Virus record (IMG/VR): IMGVR_UViG_3300025767_000033
Location: 1-50,038 of that record
Strand: one strand, 5' to 3'
From: a virus
Length of the DNA stretch: 50,038 nucleotides
The notes below the pieces were generated by a model. The model made no database searches and was not told the origin of the DNA. It worked only from the letters and a program-made list of their open reading frames with translations. The position numbers and the translations under genes were made by a program. Below, one piece after another: positions 41,727-46,667 of the stretch (positions within the stretch are counted from its first letter, which is position 1; the number at the start of each line of letters is the position of its first letter).

Positions 41727-42242
41727 ATGTCAAGAACATATAAAGGAAGATACAAACCGATCAATCCCAGCAAATATGCTGGAGATCCAGAAACTGTAAC
41801 ATATCGTTCTATGTGGGAACGTCACTGCATGAAATGGTTCGACACAAATTCAAATGTTGAACAGTGGGTAAGTGAAGAATTAGTTATACCATATATTTGT
41901 CAAACTGATAAGAAGGCTCATAGATATTTTACTGACTTTCTCATAAAGTATAATGATGGTAGAATAGTTATTATTGAAGTGAAACCATATAAAGAGACTC
42001 TTCCACCGAAAAGCGGTGTCGGTAAAACCAGACAAAGGTTATTATCAGAAGGTTTGACATATGTAAAAAATCAATCAAAGTGGAATGCAGCAAGTTCGTA
42101 TGCAGCAGATCGTGGCTGGCATTTTGAAGTATGGACCGAAAAAGAATTGGAAGCAATGGGAATATTGCCAAAATCAACAAGAAAGTTAAGAACTAAAAAA
42201 CCAATCAAGCCTTTAGCTCCGTTTAAAAAGAAAAAGAAATGA
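41727..42242 (+). CDS. 4: Head completion nuclease gp4 (gp50/gp4 family)
   Basis: 171 aa; T4 gp4 is 150. Family blocks run in order: RTYKGRYKPINPSKYAGDPETVTYRSMWERHCMKWFD, VEQWVSEELVIPYICQTDKKAHRYFTDFLIKYNDGRIVIIEVKP. It has a TnsA/restriction-like nuclease fold with likely catalytic Asp70, Glu84 and Lys86 (D...E-x-K). In T4, gp4 acts after packaging to make heads able to take tails. The C-terminus is very basic (RKLRTKKPIKPLAPFKKKKK), fit for DNA binding. It overlaps the sulfotransferase gene by 4 bp (ATGA). Confidence 0.92.
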   Translation: MSRTYKGRYKPINPSKYAGDPETVTYRSMWERHCMKWFDTNSNVEQWVSEELVIPYICQTDKKAHRYFTDFLIKYNDGRIVIIEVKPYKETLPPKSGVGKTRQRLLSEGLTYVKNQSKWNAASSYAADRGWHFEVWTEKELEAMGILPKSTRKLRTKKPIKPLAPFKKKKK

Positions 42243-42823
42243 CGCTACCTAGAATATTTTTTATTGGAATGAATCGTACAGCAACTAAGGCATTATCGTC
42301 ATTAGTATCTGATAGCGGATATATTGCGTACCACTTTAGTGGTCGTAACGGAGAGAATATTGCCAAAACTATAAAGAAAAATGTTTTAGCCGGTAATCCA
42401 CCATTAGATACTATAGATGGCGCATGCTCGTATGCTGATATGGCATACCACGAATATGATGATTATATAGAAGGCAATTTGTATTTCAGAGAATTGTACC
42501 AAGCATATCCGGATTCATATTTTATTTTAAATACTCGGACTGAAGCCAATTGGCTTCGTTCTAGAATAAACCACAAAGATGGTGATTACTTAAAACGTTG
42601 TCGAGAAATACTAGGTGCAGGTGCTGCTATTGAAAACAATGAAGTATACATGCATTGGATGAATTACCGGAGAATCCACCATTCCGCAGCAATATCGTAT
42701 TTAACGTCAAAGACTGACCGATTTATGATCTTTGATACTGAGTACGATAATATTTCTAAAGTAGCAGAAAAACTTAAGGCGCATTATAACATTAATACCG
42801 CTCATTGGAAACACGTCGATTAA
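42239..42823 (+). CDS. Sulfotransferase-like P-loop protein (194 aa)
   Basis: The N-terminus RIFFIGMNRTATKALSSLV fits the 5'-phosphosulfate-binding loop of PAPS-dependent sulfotransferases (Arg13-Thr-Ala-Thr-Lys-Ala-Leu). The segment DSYFILNTRTEANWLRSRINH fits the 3'-phosphate-binding region (FIL..R....W..S). The family moves sulfate from PAPS to hydroxyl or amino groups of sugars, lipids or proteins. The acceptor here is unknown. Its place between gp4 and virion genes, coupled to gp4 by a 4-bp overlap, suggests late expression and virion or host-surface modification. Such genes occur in some marine phages. Confidence 0.78.
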   Translation: MTLPRIFFIGMNRTATKALSSLVSDSGYIAYHFSGRNGENIAKTIKKNVLAGNPPLDTIDGACSYADMAYHEYDDYIEGNLYFRELYQAYPDSYFILNTRTEANWLRSRINHKDGDYLKRCREILGAGAAIENNEVYMHWMNYRRIHHSAAISYLTSKTDRFMIFDTEYDNISKVAEKLKAHYNINTAHWKHVD

Positions 42824-44215: not shown

Positions 44216-44929
44216 ATGGCTTTGCCAAAACTGAATGATTCACCTTCATATGAATTGATTGTTCCATCGACAGGTAAAACTGTAAACTACAGACCGTACT
44301 TAGTAAAAGAAGAAAAAGTTTTAATGATTGCTTTTGAATCAGGAGATACAAAGCACTCAATGCGAGAAATTGGTAATACTCTCAATGCCTGTCTTCATAG
44401 TGCTGGTATTAATGTATTCGATCTAACTACATTTGATGTTGAGTATATGTTTACTCAAATCAGATCTAAAGCAGTTGGAGAAGTGGCGAATGTATTAGTT
44501 GCATGTAAATCGTGCGGACATAAAAATGAATATGAATTAGATGTTACTGATATTAAAGTGAGTAAACCTTTAGTTGAAGAAAATGTTATTCAGTTGACTA
44601 CCGATGTTGTAGTAGAGCTTGAGTATCCTACATATGGTGCAGTATGTGCATTAGAATCGCTTGGAGACAAGGATACAGTAAGTCAAGGTTTTGAGATGGC
44701 AAAGTTATCACTCAAAACTATTAAGACTGAAGAAGACCGATTTAATGTCAAGGATTATTCTAAGAAAGAAATTACTGAGTTCGTAGAGTCTATGACTACT
44801 GATCAGTTCCAAAAGATTTCTAATTTTCTAACTGGAATACCTGCAGTAACATATGAAGACATTTTCGAATGTTCTTCGTGTAAAGAAGTGAATGAAATTA
44901 AACTGAAAGGAATGAAAGATTTTTTATAG
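44216..44929 (+). CDS. 26: Baseplate hub/assembly protein gp26-like (zero-frame product)
   Basis: 237 aa. The N-terminus ALPKLNDSPSYELIVPSTGKTVNYRPYLVKEEKVLMIAFESGD is typical of the protein annotated as gp26 hub subunit in marine T4-like phages. Two Cys pairs, Cys97/Cys100 (ACKSCGHKNEYEL) and Cys219/Cys222 (ECSSCKEVNEIKL), suggest a zinc ribbon. Ribosome site TAGGAG. It ends exactly at a slippery T TTT TTA TAG, after which a -1 frame continues for 63 codons. The place before the tape-measure candidate, with this frameshift site, suggests a tail assembly chaperone role like lambda G. Confidence 0.82.
   Translation: MALPKLNDSPSYELIVPSTGKTVNYRPYLVKEEKVLMIAFESGDTKHSMREIGNTLNACLHSAGINVFDLTTFDVEYMFTQIRSKAVGEVANVLVACKSCGHKNEYELDVTDIKVSKPLVEENVIQLTTDVVVELEYPTYGAVCALESLGDKDTVSQGFEMAKLSLKTIKTEEDRFNVKDYSKKEITEFVESMTTDQFQKISNFLTGIPAVTYEDIFECSSCKEVNEIKLKGMKDFL
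44920..44926 (+). other. Candidate -1 frameshift heptamer T TTT TTA
   Basis: In the gp26 frame the codons are GAT TTT TTA TAG, so the heptamer is in the right phase for -1 slippage. A Shine-Dalgarno-like AAAGGAA ends 7 bases upstream, as in dnaX-type sites. A weak stem (TTGGTT 44950-44955 with AACCAA 44967-44972, extendable past one mismatch) lies 23 bases downstream. The stop codon is directly after the heptamer. Confidence 0.75.
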
Positions 44930-45117
44930 TATGCCTCTCTCATGACAATTTGGTTAACCACTTCAAAACCAATTTCGCGATGATGCAGCACCACGGATAC
45001 AGCCTTTCGGAATTAGAGACTATGATACCATGGGAACGAGATGTTTATGTTTCTATGTTGATTGATTATATTAGAGAAGAGAATGATAAGTTAAAAACTA
45101 TTAACAATAATCGATAG
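44926..45117 (+). CDS. -1-frame extension of gp26-like gene (gp26-X fusion, about 300 aa total)
   Basis: Read from 44926 in the -1 frame the product is IVCLSHDNLVNHFKTNFAMM then QHHGYSLSELETMIPWERDV, ending ...REENDKLKTINNNR before TAG at 45115. It is compact, helical and clearly protein-like. No ATG, GTG or TTG precedes DNLVNHF in this frame after the stop at 44899, only ATA. The first ATG (44980) would remove the first 18 residues. This makes a frameshift from gp26 the best route, giving 237 + 63 residues. It could correspond to the T-part of lambda GT; identity with T4 gp51 is not established (T4 gp51 is much longer). Confidence 0.75.
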   Translation: MVCLSHDNLVNHFKTNFAMMQHHGYSLSELETMIPWERDVYVSMLIDYIREENDKLKTINNNR

Positions 45118-45125
45118 AGATAATA

Positions 45126-46667
45126 ATGAGCACCTTAAAAGACGTCATTGATAGATTAAAAGAAGAAGGTCAGCTGACAAGAAACAGCGGAACCAACTCA
45201 ATAAAATCAATGAAAGAATTGTTAACACAAAATATCGAGGCTTCACTCGAGATTAGTTCACAACTAAAAGAAATGGGTGCCGTTGTTCCTCAATTAGCTC
45301 AAAGCCAAGGTGTCACTGGTGAAGGTGATGCGGTCGAAGCCAAAATAGATGCTGATCAACAAAACAAAAGTATTTTATCGGCTCTTAAAGATATCGGTTC
45401 AGCTTTGTTTGGAATATCCGATGAACAAAAGAAAAAATCAGAAAGCGGCGGTATAGCAGGTTTCTTTAAAAACCTTCTTTTTGGTGGTGCTATAGCTGGA
45501 GCAATCCAACTGGTTGTAGAAAACTGGGACTATATTACTGAAGTATTTCAAACTAAGATTTTACCTACACTTAAGGAATTAGGAAGTAAGGTTGTTGAAA
45601 TAGGTAAAATTGTTATTCCTTTTATTATCGATAACTTTGATACTATAGCAAAAACAATGTTAGGTATGTGGGTTTTCGGTAAAATATTTACGGCAATAAA
45701 AGCTATCCAAGCCGGTCTTGCACTATTAAATTTTAACCTACTTAAATCTGCTGCTGCAATGGCTCTAGCTAGTGGCAAAGCTCTTGTTAGTTCGGTAGCT
45801 GGATTTGCTATGAGAATGGGAGTCATGGCGGTACAAATTGGTGCGGTTGGTGTTTCAATGCTTGCTGGAATGGCACCATTGGCTATTGCTGCTGCCCCAT
45901 TTGTCGCTGCTGCTGCAGGGGTCGCGCTGGTGCTTTATTCACTTACAAAAGCAATAGATGATGCGAAGGCAATATTTGCAGATACTGGATCAATCGGTTT
46001 GGCACTGACTGAAGGACTTTCTACGTTAGTAGCTACTATTGCCGGATTTGTACCAGATCTTCTTAAAGACGCAGTATCGTGGATAGCTCGTAAGTTAGGA
46101 TTTGACGAAGCAGCCGACGCAATGGACGATTTTAGCATCACCGATTGGTTGCAAGATGGCGTTGCCGGTATATTCGACTCTCTTCGTATAACTTTCATGA
46201 AGGCAATTAATGGCGTTATTGATTATGTCAATGGTGCTTTAGACTGGATACCAGGTTTTGGTCCGGAGACTATTGCCAAACCTTTTGATATAGCATCAGA
46301 AGAAAAGCTTATTGAAACAAAAAATGAAGGTAAGTTACAGCGCAGGGAAGAAGAAGCAAGAAAAGAAGAAGAAAAATTGACCGTGGTTGAAAAACCGCCG
46401 GTTCCTGCACAACAGGCTGAAGCCGTAACGACGACGCCGATTGAAAGAGGCGAGTCTCCTAATCAAGGCGCTTTAGTTGTGGAGCAACAAGCTTTACAAC
46501 AACAACAAGCACAGGCAGCCGTAGCTCAGGCAGCGATGGCATCAGCACCACCGATGATTAATGCTCCAACATCAAATAATACTAATGTCAGTAATGTGTC
46601 TAACGCAATTATGGATATTAACATTCCGTCTATCGATTTCTTTGATAGAACTTATTCTCCAATATAA
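45126..46667 (+). CDS. 29: Tail tape-measure candidate (gp29 position, 513 aa)
   Basis: The N-terminal 110 residues are helical and charged (LKDVIDRLKEEGQLTRN ... QNIEASLEISSQLKEMG). Residues 105-290 have several strongly hydrophobic helices (GIAGFFKNLLFGGAIAGAIQLVV; MLAGMAPLAIAAAPFVAAAAGVALVLYSL), as in many tape-measure proteins. A Gln/Ala-rich tail follows, ending NIPSIDFFDRTYSPI. T4 gp29 is 590 aa. It lies 8 bp after the gp26 extension, the lambda G-GT-H order. If it sets tail length at about 0.15 nm per residue, the tail would be near 77 nm; this is arithmetic from a general rule. A hub role is possible too. Confidence 0.65.
   Translation: MSTLKDVIDRLKEEGQLTRNSGTNSIKSMKELLTQNIEASLEISSQLKEMGAVVPQLAQSQGVTGEGDAVEAKIDADQQNKSILSALKDIGSALFGISDEQKKKSESGGIAGFFKNLLFGGAIAGAIQLVVENWDYITEVFQTKILPTLKELGSKVVEIGKIVIPFIIDNFDTIAKTMLGMWVFGKIFTAIKAIQAGLALLNFNLLKSAAAMALASGKALVSSVAGFAMRMGVMAVQIGAVGVSMLAGMAPLAIAAAPFVAAAAGVALVLYSLTKAIDDAKAIFADTGSIGLALTEGLSTLVATIAGFVPDLLKDAVSWIARKLGFDEAADAMDDFSITDWLQDGVAGIFDSLRITFMKAINGVIDYVNGALDWIPGFGPETIAKPFDIASEEKLIETKNEGKLQRREEEARKEEEKLTVVEKPPVPAQQAEAVTTTPIERGESPNQGALVVEQQALQQQQAQAAVAQAAMASAPPMINAPTSNNTNVSNVSNAIMDINIPSIDFFDRTYSPI

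Follow-up and report, generated by a model that had tools for sequence, protein, structure and literature searches.

A conserved T_TTT_TTN heptamer and a predicted -1 frameshift joining gp26 and gp51 in T4-like phages

Programmed -1 ribosomal frameshifting very probably produces two tail-assembly chaperones from a single gp26-like gene in many relatives of phage T4, as judged from comparative sequence analysis centred on a 50,038-nucleotide virus record (IMG/VR IMGVR_UViG_3300025767_000033, positions 1 to 50,038; referred to here as the window). This reading follows from the invariance of a slippery heptamer and its phase, the coding pattern of the -1 frame, missing start codons, Shine-Dalgarno (SD) and structure signals, and the existence of a pre-made fusion in T4. 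Slippage within the cell, its rate and the roles of the two products are what we infer from these features.

The gp26-like gene of the window (positions 44216 to 44929, plus strand, as for all features below) encodes a putative short tail/hub assembly chaperone of 237 aa in the 0 frame. The deduced protein, which has cysteine pairs, was matched in a profile search to PF12322 (T4_baseplate, 1.3e-51) and also to phrog_150 (baseplate hub, 8.9e-54), and the record, possibly a fragment at 50 kb, has no second locus of this kind. The gene ends in ...AAA GGA ATG AAA GAT TTT TTA TAG; as a sequence-only reading of the window had noted, its final two sense codons, TTT TTA, complete a T_TTT_TTA heptamer (44920 to 44926), the presumed -1 slip site, in a phase that fits tandem -1 slippage, and the 0-frame stop codon TAG (44927 to 44929), which ends the short form, follows directly. 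The -1 frame has no stop between 44902 and a TAG at 45115 to 45117 and holds 63 codons after the slip (44926 to 45114). These codons and their stop constitute the gp51 domain (44926 to 45117), the C-terminal part of a predicted long form computed at 300 aa, in agreement with the lengths proposed earlier.

The extension matched phrog_634 ('baseplate hub assembly catalyst', 4.9e-26) as well as columns 235-276 at the C-terminal end of phrog_150, and some members of this family are thus already fused to it. The earlier reading had left the extension anonymous; it is the cyanophage 'gp51' of Sullivan et al. 2010. Matches to gp26 were obtained in 671 phage records and matches to the extension in 636.

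The frequency of TTTTTTA in the AT-rich window is ordinary (23 observed versus 26 expected), and the case against a chance heptamer therefore rests on conservation; chance was dismissed on finding the heptamer at the same place and in the same phase in 58 lineages. Among 80 IMG/VR relatives and cultured phages, the heptamer was located at the gp26 end in the same phase, and the extension in the -1 frame wherever the contig was long enough to hold it. The 58 lineages, each represented by one locus per group with gp26 sequences less than 80% identical and all with the slip site, comprise Kyanoviridae and pelagiphages, with phages of Synechococcus, Methylophilales, Vibrio, Rhizobium, Sinorhizobium, Stenotrophomonas and Desulfovibrio. 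All 58 carry T_TTT_TTN with gp51 in the -1 frame, N being C in 25, A in 16, T in 13 and G in 4, and virtual gp26-gp51 fusions made by a -1 slip were obtained for 91 loci. The expectation that homologues of the extension would follow gp26-like genes in -1 phase, with the heptamer conserved, was thus borne out, Ackermannviridae and Vibrio phage D533, which are without the T6 run, being set apart.

The codon preceding TTT TTN is GAT, AGT, AAT, TCT or GCT (D, S, N, A), and its third base is T in every one of the 58 lineages. Under gp26 codon usage this invariant T has a probability of 10^-13.6, and the exclusive use of TTT for Phe at the site, compared with 64% gene-wide, one of 10^-11.2; both values overstate the case, as the lineages are taken to be independent and the set was assembled from loci with the T6 heptamer. 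The sounder statement is that exceptions are nearly absent from the Kyanoviridae-like group, and the fair count of exceptions is that among all gp26 relatives found, where true absence of the heptamer was confined to Ackermannviridae and Vibrio phage D533. An apparent loss in locus L157 was rejected, since its DNA contains a T8 run and the gene end had been misplaced.

Start codons offer few other entries into the -1 frame. In the window, the first canonical start in this frame is TTG at 44950, which lies beyond the conserved LSHD at eight residues into the extension and confirms the earlier observation that the extension begins before any in-frame ATG, GTG or TTG; no SD sequence was detected upstream of this TTG or of the ATG codons at 44980 and 44983. 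Thirty-nine of the 58 lineages have no ATG, GTG or TTG before the conserved LSHxxL with which the extension starts, and Desulfovibrio phage 7757 has no canonical start in the entire extension, while a canonical start lies within 18 nt of the heptamer in the other 19. A separate gp51 start with an SD sequence, which the sequence-only reading had named as evidence against frameshifting, was searched for across the 58 lineages and found to be lacking in most of them; among the early starts, only that of Ps15 and, weakly, that of L120 have a placed SD. In some phages, the heptamer is accompanied by an ATG or GTG that overlaps the stop codon of gp26 (Vibrio nt-1, Rhizobium I34, Stenotrophomonas Ps15 and Sinorhizobium phiM12), and in these both routes may be in use, with reinitiation supplying a separate gp51.

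In 11 of the 58 lineages, a stop codon closes the -1 frame no more than one codon upstream of the heptamer, so that ribosomes must enter this frame at the heptamer or later. The -1 frame appears to evolve as protein upstream of any start codon: from the heptamer up to where the first start usually lies, the differences at the three codon positions of this frame amount to 0.45, 0.32 and 0.58, highest at the third, which, along with the phrog_634 match, upholds the description of the extension as protein-like. An AlphaFold model of the extension (pLDDT 72) consists of three helices, of which one begins at residue 2, and an internal Met start would, according to this model, therefore cut that helix.

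SD-like and structural signals flank the heptamer. The SD-like AAAGGAA reported by the earlier reading was confirmed at positions 44906 to 44912, 7 nt before the heptamer (8 nt for its AGGA core), and most of the 58 lineages have such an element, usually 8-10 nt upstream. Pairing with the anti-SD was stronger than in synonymous shuffles across the 58 lineages (mean z of -1.04; 86% below expectation). Just 3' of the heptamer, RNA structure was enriched for the lineages as a class (mean z of -1.84, with 48% below -2, compared with -0.8 to +0.3 in other stretches), and clear hairpins follow the heptamer in S-PM2 and S-WAM1.

The window itself contains a stem-loop candidate, TTGGTT/AACCAA (44950 to 44985; arms 44950-44955 and 44967-44972), 23 nt after the heptamer, which is joined by a weaker outer helix in relatives. 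The weak downstream stem described earlier thus exists, but it is not significant on its own (z of -0.3), and it was rejected as a strong stimulator in this sequence; its role in frameshifting is uncertain. Compensatory wobble changes were seen in the stem among 16 close relatives of the window, a covariation that is at most suggestive, as the two arms are part of coding sequence that is itself conserved.

Under the proposed mechanism, most ribosomes would halt at the TAG at 44927 and release the 237-aa gp26-like short form. In a minority, the tRNAs on TTT TTA would shift back together by one base, upon which translation would continue in the -1 frame and yield the 300-aa gp26-gp51 fusion. The rate of slippage is probably raised by the SD-like element, at a distance of about 8 nt, and in many relatives also by the hairpin that follows the heptamer. 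By analogy with G and GT of phage lambda, the short form would likely coat the tape measure protein, and the three-helix C-terminal domain of the rarer long form would connect the tape measure complex to tube or hub proteins.

Translation of gp51 as a separate small protein, through termination and reinitiation at or near the gp26 stop from a canonical or rare (ATA/ATT) start in the -1 frame, is an improbable alternative. It would suit the TAATG/TGATG overlaps of Mylasviruses, rhizobial and Stenotrophomonas phages, the annotation of gp51 as an ORF of its own in GenBank (S-PM2, C48C1, Melnitz and others) and the 19 lineages with an early start; however, the 39 lineages without such a start, the one with none at all and the general lack of a placed SD argue against it. 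Reinitiation also leaves unexplained the invariant heptamer, the wobble T before it and the loss of the heptamer in T4-type phages, and the form encoded by T4 is the fused one.

Even less probable is transcriptional slippage, by which RNA polymerase would add a U within the T run so that some mRNAs are read into gp51. Long homopolymers can cause polymerase slippage, and runs of T7 or T8 occur in 13 of the 58 lineages; yet the window and 44 other lineages have T6 only, which is short for such slippage, the run usually stops exactly at the Z position of a ribosomal heptamer, and the ribosome rather than the polymerase is indicated by the SD-like element and the structure further downstream. That one ORF was split by an indel, through sequencing error or gene decay, or that the extension is non-functional, has a vanishingly small probability, even though errors are common in homopolymers and T4 encodes its gp51 fusion in a single frame: the same arrangement was observed in the cultured phages S-PM2, Syn19, HTVC008M and Melnitz and in all 58 lineages, and three independent, near-identical contigs agree with the window. 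These IMG/VR contigs (L006, L007 and L008) have an identical T6, and L008 represents a distinct strain with a next gene that is 82% identical, which rules out the sequencing error in the T run that the sequence-only reading had considered. In L008, gp26 is 99% identical to that of the window and the downstream tape-measure candidate only 82%, which suggests faster change or recombination just downstream of gp26.

T4-type phages provide a natural control for programmed frameshifting. Gene 51 of T4 is a separate gene of 249 aa on the strand opposite to gene 26, and its product combines a PF12322 domain (residues 1-201) and a phrog_634 region (1.2e-23) in an in-frame fusion, to which a profile of the virtual slip products aligns across the junction. 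That T4 gp51 is an in-frame union of a gp26-like domain and the extension backs the earlier suggestion of a T4-like counterpart of G/GT. The heptamer is absent from all eight T4-type phages with a separate gp51: the gp26 gene ends in GAR TTC TTT in T4, X20, Merlin and VR25, in GAA TTT GTT in DLP2 and in AGT TTC CTT in Skers, that of AS-gz has no T run at all, and that of L186 ends in GAG TTT TTT, without the leading T and with an immediate stop in the -1 frame. The protein motif GLKEFF is retained in five of the eight despite loss of the heptamer. These sequences indicate that phages whose long form comes from a second gene do not keep the slip site. On balance, we favour frameshifting as the ancestral state of the T4 superfamily (Kyanoviridae, pelagiphages and several other groups), with the T4 lineage, so often named as the exception, as the derived one, in which a duplicated, pre-fused gene 51 was swapped in and the slip site was lost.

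Other arrangements were encountered among more distant relatives. A homologous -1 extension is present, without a T6 heptamer, in Ackermannviridae and Vibrio phage D533. In Ackermannviridae (L094:3700-3800, also L167-L181 and L195), no canonical start precedes the conserved part of the extension, ATT occupies the place of the stop-overlapping ATG of other phages, and ATTTTCATTTAATTT is invariant in Kuttervirus-like members; these phages may use another recoding signal or a rare start. In Bacillus phage SP-15 (L196:2150-2420), the gp26-like gene has TTT TTT eight codons ahead of its stop and is followed by a gp51-like tail in the +1 frame, which perhaps reflects a +1 or -2 shift. In Aeromonas phage PX29 (Angelvirus; L188:1990-2174), T_TTT_TTC is accompanied by a short ORF resembling gp51, whose TTG start overlaps the stop codon of gp26. 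Aeh1, which is related in type to PX29, has been said to lack gp51 (PMC3037559) and may share this arrangement.

The extension is directly followed by an ORF of 513 aa (45126 to 46667), as the sequence-only reading had stated, while its designation there as a tape-measure candidate received weak support (phrog_167, tape measure, 0.0013). This ORF resembles a phiM12 gene (L091) whose annotation notes a similarity to tape measure proteins, and a tblastn search of phages for the tape measure gave no match. A sulfotransferase-like gene (42239-42823; PF17784, 3e-10) was observed among the tail and head-completion genes of the window, between an ORF with a TnsA-like fold (PF08722) and a gp2-like DNA end protector gene. 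For the AlphaFold model of gp26 (pLDDT 84), the PDB entry shown with the highest probability was 2ob9, the tail assembly chaperone of HK97 (0.44, with an E of 1.5), a likeness that is suggestive only, and a sequence search for a relative of solved structure returned none. A comparison of the extension with the Pfam tail assembly chaperone (TAC) families was likewise negative, its sole match being a weak and probably spurious one to Stealth_CR2.

Frameshifting would account for the truncated appearance of cyanophage gp51 and for its missing or misplaced start codons, and gene calls in hundreds of marine phage genomes would be corrected. The group also represents a natural experiment, in which the chaperone pair is obtained via slippage or via a second gene and the slip site is lost where the second gene is present. 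The tail assembly chaperone frameshift of lambda G/GT (Xu, Hendrix and Duda 2004) was reviewed in 2016 as a strategy widely conserved 'except T4' (PMC5009743), a remark that becomes testable here.

Cyanophage gp51 was reported to be only ~20% as long as T4 gp51 and was treated as a short separate gene without ~200 N-terminal residues (Sullivan et al. 2010, PMC3037559), and text searches of that article gave no mention of frameshifting. The gene is the same as the extension, and the missing part is supplied here by gp26 in the 0 frame. Tail assembly chaperones of T4-like phages were identified by Vladimirov, Gautam and Davidson 2022 (Virology 566:9-15), whose title stresses a mechanism other than frameshifting; as cited in PMC10885494, some T4-like phages have a short gene and a fused long gene, and PMC12846349 credits the same study with poly-T -1 signals in T4-like TAC-N genes. 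The earlier impression that the case had not been described holds insofar as no explicit statement of a cyanophage gp26/gp51 frameshift was found in the literature searched, Vladimirov et al. 2022 being represented there by citing papers; it does not hold for T4-like tail chaperones in general, which are already in the literature. The mechanism is hence of a known kind, and an account of the exact gp26/gp51 case may already exist. The present analysis contributes the wide range of lineages, evidence at the level of codons, the SD and structure signals, and the comparison with T4 as a control.

As judged from its sequence organization, the gp26/gp26-51 pair corresponds to lambda G/GT, which is likewise an overlapping ORF pair joined by an in-phase slip site, represented here by T_TTT_TTN with gp51 in the -1 frame. 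In contrast to lambda G/GT, the phage extension has no sequence match to a TAC family and gp26 is a T4_baseplate protein. Tail chaperones of Vandenendeviridae and Andersonviridae also have a poly-T -1 frameshift, with the motif GTTTTT instead of T_TTT_TTN (PMC12846349). The domains of the window are shared with T4, where gp26 represents the short form and gp51 the long form; T4, however, encodes these in two genes on opposite strands, with a pre-made fusion and no heptamer, whereas the window has its gp51 domain in the -1 frame.
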